In this document: positions 50,533 to 64,000 of the stretch, one piece after another
Position numbering within the stretch: position 1 is the stretch's first letter
Layout of the letters: every line of letters begins with the position of its first letter
From: Hirudinaria manillensis
Lineage: Eukaryota; Annelida; Clitellata; Hirudinida; Hirudinidae
Direction: 5' to 3'
Assembly: GCA_034509925.1 (NCBI GenBank)
Contig: CM067536.1
Coordinates: 9,528,501 to 9,592,500 of the forward strand
DNA length: 64,000 nucleotides
Notes under the pieces: generated by a model
The model's database searches: none
What the model saw: the letters and a program-made list of their open reading frames with translations, nothing else
What the model was told of the DNA's origin: nothing
Program-made: the position numbers and the translations under genes

Positions 50533-50889
50533 AGGGTTAGGGTTAGGGTTAGGGTTAGGGTTAGGGGTTAGGGTTAGGGTTAGGGTTAGGGTTAGGGTTA
50601 GGGTTAGGGTTAGGGTTAGGGTTAGGGTTAGGGGTTAGGGTTAGGGTTAGGGTTAGGGTTAGGGTTAGGGTTAGGGTTAGGGTTAGGGTTAGGGTTAGGG
50701 TTAGGGTTAGGGTTAGGGTTAGGGTTAGGGTTAGGGTTAGGGTTAGGGTTAGGGTTAGGGTTAGGGTTAGGGTTAGGGTTAGGGTTAGGGTTAGGGTTAG
50801 GGTTAGGGTTAGGGTTAGGGTTAGGGTTAGGGTTAGGGTTAGGGTTAGGGTTAGGGTTAGGGTTAGGGTTAGGGTTAGGGTTAGGGTTA
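50533..50889 (+). repeat. Long telomere-repeat array (TTAGGG)n
   Basis: About 59 almost perfect units over 357 bp, with two TTAGGGG variants. It is the longest telomeric tract in the window and leads straight into the first unit of the 3.34-kb array. Confidence 0.97.
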
Positions 50890-53765
50890 AAGACGAGAAT
50901 TAATAAAACTGCACTTCCACTTTCCTTGTCAATAGACTATCAAGCAAATTATGTACCGTATTCGTCAAAAACACAATATAAACATAACTAAATTCACAAT
51001 GCATCAAGAGACCATGAGTCGGCAATTGATGAATGTAATAAGACTAGTTAGATATCTGGCATTAAAGATATTGGGAACCCATTAAAGTTAAAGCAGATTA
51101 GGACAAAAAATGTTAACTGCACTACCAAGAATTGCAACGCAAGAATTGAAATAATGCAGTAACAGAGAGTCGTATGTTCCAAAAAAATTCTTCAGACGTA
51201 TTTATCGTGAAAAGAAATTTTGGAAAAAATGACACATAGATTGCATATTCACTTATTAAAAACTCGTCAAAGCACATTAAGACAGCAAGAGATGATAAAT
51301 CATCACTTATAAATTAAAGCTATACAACTAACAAATTACCCTAGTAGTTTTACCACAAATTTGTCAAGGAGCGATAAATCAGTGTTAAAACAAGAGATGA
51401 AAACTCAGCTCTTAAAGGAACCAAAGAATTTAGTTGTATAATTGGTAATAAAATTATTGGAAACCCAAATAAAATTACAACCAGAATGCAATTAAAATAA
51501 GCGCTTTTTATTTTTAAAAAAATCTATCAAAACGTATTAAACGTTGACGATTTCTGGTAGTAAAATTATTGGAAACCCAAATAAAATTAAAACCAGAGTG
51601 CAATAAAATAAATTAAAATAAGCGTTTTTTGTTTTTAAAAAATATATCAAAACGTATTAAACGTTGACGATTTTTAGTTGCAAAATTGGTAATAAAATTA
51701 TTGGAAACCCAAATAAAAATTAAAACCAGAATGCAATTAAAATAAGCGCTTTTTATTTTTAAAAAAATCTATCAGAACGTATTAAACGTTGACGATTTCT
51801 GGTAATAAAATTATTGGAAACCCAAATAAAATTAAAACCAGAATGCAATGACAAAGTTGTGAATTACAACCAGAATGCAATTAAAATAAGCGCTTTTTAT
51901 TTTTTAAAAAATCTATCAAAACGTATTAAACATTGACGATTTCTGGTAATAAAATTATTGGAAACCCAAATAAAATTAAAAACAGAATGCAATGAAATAA
52001 ATAAAAATAAAAATTAAAATAAGCGTTTTTGTTTTTAAAAAATATATCAAAACGTATTAAACGTTGACGATTTTTAGTTGCAAAATTGGTAATAAAATTA
52101 TTGGAAACCCAAATAAAATTAAAACCAGAATGCAATTAAAATAAGCGCTTTTTATTTTTAAAAAAATCTATCAGAACGTATTAAACGTTGACGATTTCTG
52201 GTAATAAAATTATTGGAAACCCAAATAAAATTAAAACCAGAATGCAATGACAAAGTTGTGAATTACAACCAGAATGCAATTAAAATAAGCGCTTTTTATT
52301 TTTTAAAAAATCTATCAAAACGTATTAAACATTGACGATTTCTGGTAATAAAATTATTGGAAACCCAAATAAAATTAAAAACAGAATGCAATGAAATAAA
52401 TAAAAATAAAAATTAAAATAAGCGTTTTTTGTTTTTAAAAAATATATCAAAACGTATTAAACGTTGACGATTTTTAGTTGCAAAATTGGTAATAAAATTA
52501 TTGGAAACCCAAAAATTAAAACCAGAATGCAATTAAAATAAGCGCTTTTTATTTTTAAAAAATCTATCAGAACGTATTAAACGTTGACGATTTCTGGTAA
52601 TAAAATTATTGGAAACCCAAATAAAATCAAAACCAGAATGCAATGACAAAGTTGTGAATTACAACCAGAATGCAATTAAAATAAGCGCTTTTTATTTTTT
52701 AAAAATCTATCAAAACGTATTAAACATTGACGATTTCTGGTAATAAAATTATTGGAAACCCAAATAAAATTAAAAACAGAATGCAATTAAAATAAGCGCT
52801 TTCTATTTTAAAAAAATCTATCAAACGTATTAAACGTTGACGATTTCTGGTAATAAAATTATTGGAAACCCAAGTAAAATTAAAACCAGAGTGTAATAAA
52901 ATAAATTAAAATAAGCGCTTTTTGTTTTTTAAAAAAATATATATCAAAACGTATTAAACGTTGACGATTTCTGGTAATAAAATTATTGGAAACCCAAATA
53001 AAATTAAAACTAGAATGCAATGAAATAAATTAAAATAAGCGCTTTTTATTTTTAAAAAAATATCAAAACGTATTAAACGTTGACGATTTTTAGTTGTATA
53101 ATTGGTAATAAAATTATTGGAAACCCAAATAAAATTAAAACCAGAATGTAAAATAAGCGCTTTTTATTTTTAAAAAATCTATCAAAACGTATTAAACGTT
53201 GACGATTTCTAGTTGTATAATTGGTAATAAAATTATTGGAAACCCAAATAAAATTAAAACCAGAGTGCAATGAAATAAATTAAAATAAGCGCTTTTTAAT
53301 TGGTAATAAAATTATTGGAAACCCAAATAAAATTAAAACCATAATGCAATAAATTAAAATATGTGCTTCTTATTTAAAAAGATCCATCAAAACGTATTAA
53401 ACGTTGACGATTTTTAAGAACGACGAGTGGGGTGTATTGGAATGCTAAAAAATACCAGAAAATGCTACGCATTACTAGTATCCAGGCTACACCAAAATAT
53501 AATCTCAGTGTTCAATGAAATTCTAAAGCGTATTAACGATAAAAGAATTTAAGAACAAAGTGAATAAAAGCAATTATAAGGTTATGCAGAGAGATACCAT
53601 AAAATTGCAACGCATGAAATGGTATCGAAGCAATATAGAAGCAAGCAAGTGTTTTTCAAACAAAACACCGATAACCACTGAGAAAATCCCAGGATTATCA
53701 AGTGAACAAAATACGGATACTTCAACAGACAAAATACAAGGCAAAATACCGTTAATACGATTAAA

Positions 53766-60902: not shown

Positions 60903-63900
60903 TTAGGGTTAAAGACGAGAATTAATAAAACTGCACTTCCACTTTCCTTGTCAATAGACTATCAAGCAAATTATGTACCGTATTCGTCAAAAACACAATA
61001 TAAACATAACTAAATTCACAATGCATCAAGAGACCATGAGTCGGCAATTGATGAATGTAATAAGACTAGTTAGATATCTGGCATTAAAGATATTGGGAAC
61101 CCATTAAAGTTAAAGCAGATTAGGACAAAAAATGTTAACTGCACTACCAAGAATTGCAACGCAAGAATTGAAATAATGCAGTAACAGAGAGTCGTATGTT
61201 CCAAAAAAATTCTTCAGACGTATTTATCGTGAAAAGAAATTTTGGAAAAAATGACACATAGATTGCATATTCACTTATTAAAAACTCGTCAAAGCACATT
61301 AAGACAGCAAGAGATGATAAATCATCACTTATAAATTAAAGCTATACAACTAACAAATTACCCTAGTAGTTTTACCACAAATTTGTCAAGGAGCGATAAA
61401 TCAGTGTTAAAACAAGAGATGAAAACTCAGCTCTTAAAGGAACCAAAGAATTTAGTTGTATAATTGGTAATAAAATTATTGGAAACCCAAATAAAATTAC
61501 AACCAGAATGCAATTAAAATAAGCGCTTTTTATTTTTAAAAAAATCTATCAAAACGTATTAAACGTTGACGATTTCTGGTAATAAAATTATTGGAAACCC
61601 AAATAAAATTAAAACCAGAGTGCAATAAAATAAATTAAAATAAGCGTTTTTTGTTTTTAAAAAATATATCAAAACGTATTAAACGTTGACGATTTTTAGT
61701 TGCAAAATTGGTAATAAAATTATTGGAAACCCAAATAAAAATTAAAACCAGAATGCAATTAAAATAAGCGCTTTTTATTTTTAAAAAAATCTATCAGAAC
61801 GTATTAAACGTTGACGATTTCTGGTAATAAAATTATTGGAAACCCAAATAAAATTAAAACCAGAATGCAATGACAAAGTTGTGAATTACAACCAGAATGC
61901 AATTAAAATAAGCGCTTTTTATTTTTTAAAAAATCTATCAAAACGTATTAAACATTGACGATTTCTGGTAATAAAATTATTGGAAACCCAAATAAAATTA
62001 AAAACAGAATGCAATGAAATAAATAAAAATAAAAATTAAAATAAGCGTTTTTTGTTTTTAAAAAATATATCAAAACGTATTAAACGTTGACGATTTTTAG
62101 TTGCAAAATTGGTAATAAAATTATTGGAAACCCAAATAAAATTAAAACCAGAATGCAATTAAAATAAGCGCTTTTTATTTTTAAAAAAATCTATCAGAAC
62201 GTATTAAACGTTGACGATTTCTGGTAATAAAATTATTGGAAACCCAAATAAAATTAAAACCAGAATGCAATGACAAAGTTGTGAATTACAACCAGAATGC
62301 AATTAAAATAAGCGCTTTTTATTTTTTAAAAAATCTATCAAAACGTATTAAACATTGACGATTTCTGGTAATAAAATTATTGGAAACCCAAATAAAATTA
62401 AAAACAGAATGCAATGAAATAAATAAAAATAAAAATTAAAATAAGCGTTTTTTGTTTTTAAAAAATATATCAAAACGTATTAAACGTTGACGATTTTTAG
62501 TTGCAAAATTGGTAATAAAATTATTGGAAACCCAAAAATTAAAACCAGAATGCAATTAAAATAAGCGCTTTTTATTTTTAAAAAATCTATCAGAACGTAT
62601 TAAACGTTGACGATTTCTGGTAATAAAATTATTGGAAACCCAAATAAAATCAAAACCAGAATGCAATGACAAAGTTGTGAATTACAACCAGAATGCAATT
62701 AAAATAAGCGCTTTTTATTTTTTAAAAATCTATCAAAACGTATTAAACATTGACGATTTCTGGTAATAAAATTATTGGAAACCCAAATAAAATTAAAAAC
62801 AGAATGCAATTAAAATAAGCGCTTTCTATTTTAAAAAAATCTATCAAACGTATTAAACGTTGACGATTTCTGGTAATAAAATTATTGGAAACCCAAGTAA
62901 AATTAAAACCAGAGTGTAATAAAATAAATTAAAATAAGCGCTTTTTGTTTTTTAAAAAAATATATATCAAAACGTATTAAACGTTGACGATTTCTGGTAA
63001 TAAAATTATTGGAAACCCAAATAAAATTAAAACTAGAATGCAATGAAATAAATTAAAATAAGCGCTTTTTATTTTTAAAAAAATATCAAAACGTATTAAA
63101 CGTTGACGATTTTTAGTTGTATAATTGGTAATAAAATTATTGGAAACCCAAATAAAATTAAAACCAGAATGTAAAATAAGCGCTTTTTATTTTTAAAAAA
63201 TCTATCAAAACGTATTAAACGTTGACGATTTCTAGTTGTATAATTGGTAATAAAATTATTGGAAACCCAAATAAAATTAAAACCAGAGTGCAATGAAATA
63301 AATTAAAATAAGCGCTTTTTAATTGGTAATAAAATTATTGGAAACCCAAATAAAATTAAAACCATAATGCAATAAATTAAAATATGTGCTTCTTATTTAA
63401 AAAGATCCATCAAAACGTATTAAACGTTGACGATTTTTAAGAACGACGAGTGGGGTGTATTGGAATGCTAAAAAATACCAGAAAATGCTACGCATTACTA
63501 GTATCCAGGCTACACCAAAATATAATCTCAGTGTTCAATGAAATTCTAAAGCGTATTAACGATAAAAGAATTTAAGAACAAAGTGAATAAAAGCAATTAT
63601 AAGGTTATGCAGAGAGATACCATAAAATTGCAACGCATGAAATGGTATCGAAGCAATATAGAAGCAAGCAAGTGTTTTTCAAACAAAACACCGATAACCA
63701 CTGAGAAAATCCCAGGATTATCAAGTGAACAAAATACGGATACTTCAACAGACAAAATACAAGGCAAAATACCGTTAATACGATTAAACTCACTAGGCCC
63801 TCGGCAGTTCTGCCCTCTAAGGTGAGCGAATAAGCGAAAAACGAGAAGATCGAAAAGCGGAAAATATTGTCCTTATATAGCCGAGAAAGGTCCAGTGTTG

Positions 63901-64000
63901 ACCAATAGGAGACTCCTGAGCGGCGGTGGGAGCACTGCTTCCACTGTCCTTTGAAGTGTTCATGCTGGCTAGCTTCTCTCTCCTAGAGGGGAGGTGGTGT
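60903..64000 (+). repeat. 3.34-kb class B tandem unit 4 (cut by window edge)
   Basis: Starts after the telomere seed at 60900-60911. 3,098 bp are visible and match unit 3 throughout. The array very likely continues to the right. Confidence 0.97.

Follow-up and report, generated by a model that had tools for sequence, protein, structure and literature searches.

The window analysed here, 64,000 bp of the leech Hirudinaria manillensis (assembly GCA_034509925.1, contig CM067536.1, called C11 below with the other contigs named likewise, positions 9528501-9592500), ends in a tandem array of 3.34-kb units set on TTAGGG telomere repeats, and a retroelement related to these units appears from its sequence to copy itself onto telomeres. 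The last base of C11 is 9,592,500, so the array ends with the contig and consists of three complete units and a fourth that the contig end interrupts. Their starts are 50881, 54221, 57562 and 60903 and their lengths 3,340, 3,341, 3,341 and 3,098 bp (the last cut), with the non-telomeric head of each beginning at 50890, 54230, 57571 and 60912. Alignment of the four units resulted in only three variable columns (unit positions 680, 1146 and 1509), and each unit-unit junction read GGTATTAGGCA-GGGTTAGGGTTA-AAGACGAG, of which we call the central two repeats the seam. The unit starts, the near-identity of the units and the GGGTTAGGGTTA at the junctions reported in the initial annotation were confirmed, as was its view of the array as telomere-seeded; the tract preceding unit 1 (50534-50889) is present as described, with a length of 356 bp and not 357 bp. 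Proximal to the array lie an older diverged copy, two further telomere tracts and several satellites (Table 1). Reversed control patterns searched genome-wide gave 0 matches, so chance is no explanation for the repeat pattern. Several contigs have round base totals, suggesting that they were cut during Hi-C curation, in which case the true chromosome tip on the right side of C11 lies outside the sequence.

Table 1. Features of the telomere-seeded array and of the older family copy, in window positions
Feature	Position	Strand
(TTAGGG)n tract, 356 bp, base for unit 1	50534..50889	+
Unit 1 (RNA sense minus: 5' end 54217, 3' end 50890) with seam 54218-54229	50890..54229	-
Unit 2 with seam 57559-57570	54230..57570	-
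Unit 3 with seam 60900-60911	57571..60911	-
Unit 4, cut at contig end	60912..64000	-
Head (the element's 3' untranslated end), 74% identity to autonomous element	50890..51430	-
A+T-rich body with internal repeats of 120-400 bp	51431..53415	-
Tail: mostly sequence that the autonomous element has between its reverse transcriptase and its 3' end (85%), followed by the element 5' end	53416..54212	-
Retained element 5' end; 59-bp match including seam, 93%	54172..54217	-
Seam GGGTTAGGGTTA, RNA sense UAACCCUAACCC; proposed primer-binding site for telomere overhang	54218..54229	.
Older diverged family copy; 3' end complete behind 46861-46875, 5' end truncated	46876..48810	-
Spliced, N-terminally truncated host mRNA copy (CCCH and RING zinc-finger protein) within the older copy	47831..48540	-
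Feature directly beyond the truncated end (48810) of the older copy	48812..48971	+

The genome was searched with the 550-bp head and the best 40 of 116 candidate places were scored. All 40 were at chromosome ends (C2, C3, C4, C7, C10, C11 and C12) or on small contigs (C19 and C22). A 3'-end motif fitting both subfamilies of the element gave 111 matches. Of the 100 listed, 99 were on small contigs or no more than ~54 kb away from a contig end; C11:210281, the sole exception, is beside degenerate telomere repeats. The restriction of the head to ends, which the initial annotation had proposed as a check, was therefore borne out, with small contigs included, among the places scored and listed. The internal spread without telomere seeds that it had set against its own reading was not seen for the unit, though broken reverse-transcriptase fragments from the wider family are present in chromosome interiors. 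Unit spacing was ~3,341 bp at C11 right, 3,381 bp at C3 left (minus strand), 3,385 bp at C2 right, 3,050-3,066 bp at C10 left, 3,370-3,469 bp at C4 left, 3,986-4,132 bp at C2 left and 3,554 bp on C19, and C22 and the inverted part of C3 left had a common spacing of ~3,201 bp. Most ends, not all, have a unit size of their own and some arrays vary internally; differing unit sizes between most ends are what local amplification predicts. Unit arrays were also seen to meet in inverted orientation without N at C2 ~16535 and C3 ~31712, one of the two junctions at a telomere tract, and these are either misjoins or real palindromes.

Protein-coding copies at C5 left and C10 left belong to a subfamily with ~75% identity in the head, and a complete copy of 6,473 bp was found at C7:10520947-10527419, comprising telomere tract, 3' end, reverse transcriptase, ORF1 (the first open reading frame), 5' end and seam. 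The coding strand of this copy runs from the tip inwards with the element 3' end directly on the telomere tract, and its two open reading frames, ORF1 of 497 amino acids (aa) and a reverse transcriptase of 589 aa, are as in endonuclease-deficient Penelope-like elements. The reverse transcriptase matched the RVT_1 profile above cut-off (E 1.1e-7), and we take its motifs DKG, FLPKVHK, GRPIVS and YLDD to be Penelope-like. Comparison with PDB gave weak matches only, to group II intron and intron-like reverse transcriptases (E about 0.05), and for ORF1 only CD-NTase chains (E 0.45). GIY-YIG was not detected in ORF1 or in the reverse transcriptase at E up to 5, and the lone GIY-YIG match reported in the genome (C1:14669915) is ~80 kb from the nearest reverse-transcriptase match. 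ORF1 and the reverse transcriptase of the C7 copy were observed to lie in one frame, split at C7:10525889-10525891 by a single TGA that is followed by CTG, and stop-codon readthrough or restart is possible at this site. Scoring 74 of 187 candidates from a genome search for the reverse transcriptase identified ten full-length 589-aa frames with a listed identity of 100%, near ends of C3, C7, C9, C10 and C11; broken or partial matches of lower identity were also seen in chromosome interiors, for example at C8:5.09 Mb and C9:5.17 Mb. In mid-C9 (5171428-5176743) reverse-transcriptase fragments of the family (86-90%) are repeated, four of them ~1.4 kb apart.

The window unit keeps the 5' end, the 3' region and the seam of the autonomous element, with identities of 74% in the 3' end, 85% in the region before it and 93% over 59 bp at the 5' end, and its body is expanded and A+T-rich. 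At C11 left a unit of 3.87 kb (3,869 bp) corresponds to the C7 element with 2,602 bp missing, and this unit is found again in the C18 array; the body that is A+T-rich in the window unit measures ~0.3 kb in this relative. The sole non-telomeric open frame of at least 100 aa in the window unit is 125 aa long with no known domain. By sequence, then, the window unit is an internally deleted, non-autonomous and gene-free relative of a protein-coding retroelement. The unit, called a telomere-flanked cassette in the initial annotation, is not a neutral one: it has both ends in common with an element encoding ORF1 and a reverse transcriptase.

The seam was evaluated at all complete 5' ends of the element. 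Its 5'-terminal 29-mer had 58 genome matches, all 58 exact with three mismatches allowed. GGGTTAGGGTTA followed 56 of the 58 (55 exactly, one with one mismatch) and the remaining two, at C2:13324 and C3:1322, miss one base of it; three telomere repeats following a complete 5' end were found at 0 of the 58 at up to two mismatches. The two-repeat seed is thus a fixed piece of the element and not a variable remnant of the host telomere. At C18:65610 and C18:67856 the preceding units break off at element position 2237, and the head that follows is nonetheless preceded by exactly two repeats, indicating that the seam belongs to the incoming 3' end. Two repeats after non-telomeric DNA were observed at C19:585, and two and a half (TTA and two telomere repeats) after non-telomeric DNA at window 46861-46875. 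The two telomere repeats seem to travel with the 3' end of the element; deduced from the DNA, the RNA sense is (UAACCC)2 both at the seams and at the two C18 joins to truncated units.

Nearly all copies whose border was read start by their 3' end on telomere repeats. The 3' end lay on at least three exact telomere repeats in 36 of the 111 3'-end matches, and C11:11075 is a 37th tract-attached end with an indel in its tract. Of the 36, 33 are on chromosome-size contigs, all no more than 54 kb from the contig end, and the other three are on C18, C19 and C22. At the distal side, ends cut within a unit and followed by telomere repeats were observed at C12 (500-800), at C4 left and in the older window copy (48810), and on C7 the same cut 574 bp into the second unit occurs twice with telomere repeats after it. 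At C3 left, in a region that is possibly misjoined, repeats follow after ~33 bases of the next head. C4 left and C11 left carry telomere tracts of more than 1 kb in the outermost position. Telomerase_RBD had one match in the genome (C10:6446931-6447296, E 1.1e-27), inside a 1,042-aa open frame, so that this genome with TTAGGG telomeres is, judging by profile match, one that carries a telomerase gene and there is no sign here of telomerase loss. The 1,042-aa frame is long for an animal exon.

The older window copy carries a foreign insert of ~710 bp in the same orientation as the element. Within it an open frame at 47869-48552 encodes 227 aa with CCCH and RING zinc fingers, presumably an RNF113-like protein, and extends 12 bases into the element, whose sequence resumes at 48541 or 48603 depending on the alignment. 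A parent-like locus at C3 ~13.127 Mb matched as six or more pieces, the gaps between which measure 85 to 201 bp, and the window copy is without these gaps, a difference explained by the reverse transcriptase switching to a host mRNA and back.

Together, the 3' ends on telomere repeats, the truncated ends under new repeats and the captured mRNA indicate reverse transcription primed by the chromosome overhang. We consider it quite probable that the window array is related to an endonuclease-deficient Penelope-like retroelement, of which it would be an internally deleted form that is not autonomous, and that it was made in three steps. In the first, as read from the anatomy of the copies, the (UAACCC)2 end of the element RNA would pair with the TTAGGG 3' overhang and the reverse transcriptase of autonomous copies would extend the chromosome 3' end by copying the element, beginning at the element's 3' side and proceeding to its 5' side; extension would often stop early, and the truncated end would then gain telomere repeats. 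With a linear template the element RNA would start at UGCCUAAUACC and end at UAACCC. In the second step one event could deposit a unit together with the two-repeat seam and a portion of the unit that follows, because the loci are partial tandems. In the third step short tandems would be expanded and homogenised at each end, and for this we lean towards DNA expansion of a retrotransposed founder, DNA-level exchange being the likelier agent and the copying of multi-unit or circular RNA a plausible but less likely one.

The passage from one copy to an array was assessed by counting complete units behind each tract-attached 3' end. Among the 36 such ends 19 had no complete unit and 17 had one to fourteen. 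Two units credited to C11:17458 belong to C11:11075, and after this correction complete units are lacking at 20 of 37 ends and present at 17. Some of the zero counts come from arrays that a contig end interrupts, and 13 of the 58 5' ends have no tract assigned to them. Young heads, compared by mismatches plus gaps, differed by 0-2 within arrays (0 among the four at C11 right, 0-1 at C4 left, 1 at C2 left, 1 at C5 left, 0 at C7 right and 2 at C11 left) and 2-7 between arrays of the window's subfamily. This pattern fits a multi-unit RNA template and DNA-level expansion alike.

DNA-level amplification also acts at these ends, as can be seen at three loci. C18:1-10000 is a 1,216-bp tandem array built from a segment inside the element, with no seam and neither element end, and on C7 the two blocks that have one truncation point are identical at 593 of 593 compared bases; plain retrotransposition does not account for amplification of either. 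The third locus is C13 left (C13:1-10000), with tandem genes for the U2 small nuclear RNA (snRNA) that gave 22 Rfam matches over the 10 kb; they lie in 452-bp units, most of which carry five to six CCCTAA repeats, making the locus a telomere-seeded array of a host gene. Probes at 14, 25 and 60 kb on C13 still contained the U2 core with three to six telomere repeats, and BLAST with a low-complexity filter found no relatives of this 452-bp satellite among 16 sequences (15 loci and the window). The local amplification put forward in the initial annotation therefore stands in part, on the differing unit sizes and on C18 and C7, and recombination is not the whole story.

The strongest alternative is that a whole array arises in one event from a circular or multi-unit RNA with an internal seam, with the enzyme moving round or along it and falling off at random. 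The limit of about two repeats after all 58 complete 5' ends, never three or more, speaks for it, as do young units that are alike within arrays that differ from each other (C19 excepted) and the 20 to 17 division of tract-attached 3' ends, and multi-copy mRNA with internal initiation has been described for Penelope loci in PMC11167929. However, the 22 complete 5' ends on the C18 contig would require an RNA of tens of kb, the seamless array and the duplicated C7 block indicate copying at the DNA level, and neither Rfam nor the strict core motif revealed a hammerhead, leaving this explanation on the doubtful side. A related and slightly more tentative proposal is that ends are lengthened by multi-unit jumps, in which a circular or multi-unit RNA would be copied with the seam as its landing site for the telomere overhang, and small non-coding deletion derivatives retaining just the two ends would be copied in trans; if this is true, a single event lengthens a chromosome, in a host that has telomerase, by kilobases of identical tandem DNA.

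Several observations weigh against overhang-primed retrotransposition followed by local expansion as we propose it. None of the 58 complete 5' ends is capped by long telomere, although full-length single insertions, if they occur, would be expected to give such caps. Only one repeat is present at the C10:34066 attachment, and at C11:210281 ~20 other bases separate the telomere repeats from the head. On C19, 20 differences separate the two adjacent heads and 9-16 separate them from other young heads, and both look like uncorrected reads. The seamless array at C18:1-10000 implies that arrays need no seam. The Penelope assignment is provisional, made from RVT_1 and sequence motifs. Lastly, Rfam detected no hammerhead at E up to 10 in window 46000-57700 and locus L006, nor in further scans at the gathering threshold, and the strict hammerhead core motif had 0 matches in both elements with one looser match in the window unit, scans that strongly reduced hammerhead motifs could escape.

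The remaining explanations are improbable to differing degrees. Passive amplification of a telomere-flanked DNA cassette by break-induced replication or circles with no reverse transcription, as for C. elegans TALT or yeast Y', would account for the telomere seeds, the restriction to ends and the homogeneity within arrays, and the C13 U2 array with its telomere stubs suggests that such amplification occurs in this genome. It does not fit the ends common to the unit and the reverse-transcriptase element, the fixed 3' boundary with variable 5' truncation, the captured spliced mRNA, or the finding of no internal donor copy among the places scored or listed, and we regard it as improbable. As the whole story it was rejected on the autonomous relative with its reverse transcriptase. 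The likeness to TALT and Y' in the initial annotation holds for the look of the array and perhaps its amplification, and not for the nature of the unit, which is a relative of a reverse-transcriptase element. Still less probable is replacement of telomerase by the elements as the main means of end maintenance, like HeT-A/TART in flies: elements occur at many ends in chains of elements and tracts, but a Telomerase_RBD match was found inside a long open frame (1,042 aa), C4 left and C11 left finish in tracts of more than 1 kb, and tracts lie between many insertions. That a single copy was multiplied by the assembler is hardly credible given three private variants among four window units and unit sizes that differ between ends with the same anatomy at many of them, even with C11 ending at a round coordinate and the inverted arrays without N on C2 and C3 left resembling misjoins.

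We file endonuclease-deficient telomere Penelope elements (Athena, Terminons) as the closest known system, with the leech element classed as one that works like an endonuclease-deficient telomere Penelope element and not as a Terminon, TALT or Y'. A mode of attachment close to the one read here is described for endonuclease-deficient Penelope elements and Terminons in PMC3846280, PMC6431247 and PMC5537684. Endonuclease-deficient telomere Penelope-like elements have two ORFs and are typically 4-6 kb long (PMC6431247); Athena is from bdelloid rotifers and Coprina is a further endonuclease-deficient group (PMC6515669). Telomere-attached endonuclease-free Penelope elements are reported from bdelloids and sporadically from other animals, fungi, protists and plants (PMC3846280), which also mentions endonuclease-deficient Penelope elements in kuruma shrimp. 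In common with the Athena type, the leech element has two ORFs without GIY-YIG, a length of about 6 kb, a position at chromosome ends, a 3' end on telomere repeats and 5' truncation followed by new telomere repeats. It differs in the telomere repeat (TTAGGG in the leech, TGTGGG in bdelloids; PMC7943196) and in that non-autonomous deletion derivatives form whole arrays here.

Terminons, giant Athena-containing retroelements, also end their RNA, on the 3' side, in short reverse-complement telomere repeats, form head-to-tail chains and capture host genes (PMC6431247); one such capture was observed here (window 47831-48540). Unlike the 6.5-kb leech element, in which a hammerhead was not found, they have a hammerhead ribozyme beside these repeats and reach up to 40 kb, and no accessory enzyme was found in the C7 copy. 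Partial tandems of canonical Penelope with pseudo-long terminal repeats (pseudo-LTRs) likewise place a complete unit head-to-tail with a 5'-truncated one (PMC11167929), whereas here no endonuclease domain was found, the target is the telomere and several arrays exceed two units. C. elegans TALT is similarly a non-telomeric unit with telomere repeats that is duplicated at chromosome ends, but it comes from an internal host region and its spread was seen in telomerase-deleted worms (PMC4595603). The leech unit has reverse-transcriptase kin in a genome with a telomerase gene, and an internal host source of the kind known for TALT was not found, with all scored head matches (40 of 40) being at ends or on small contigs. 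Yeast Y' elements are subtelomeric tandem units with interstitial telomere repeats, a likeness to the leech array, and differ from it in having a helicase-type ORF where the leech unit has only the 125-aa frame without a family. In HeT-A/TART/TAHRE and MoTeR the 3' end likewise faces the chromosome interior; these are non-LTR elements, in contrast to the leech reverse transcriptase, which looks Penelope-like on its motifs. As retroelements at telomeres they resemble the leech element. Among the open-access papers listed, no report of arrays of this kind in an animal with TTAGGG telomeres was found.

Other features were recorded in the window and elsewhere. Window 43720-50048 contains several subtelomeric satellites common to contig ends, including a 169 bp satellite and a block whose kin at the left ends of C3, C6 and C7 are ~522 bp repeats. 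A 478-aa open frame at window 26170-27606 had no Pfam match, and we take it to resemble the C-terminal region of non-LTR elements that carry a restriction-like endonuclease. Near the left end of C9 (3901-7068) a fragment of large-subunit ribosomal RNA adjoins a 578-aa RVT_1 frame (E 4.8e-33), perhaps an element inserted in ribosomal DNA.

These findings offer a possible mechanism for telomere-seeded tandem arrays, which the initial annotation had credited to recombination alone. A telomere-attached system with many identical copies and non-coding passengers in a TTAGGG genome would be a practical case in which to study how RNA ends are matched to overhangs, how an element and telomerase share chromosome ends, and how a retroelement turns into subtelomeric satellite arrays.

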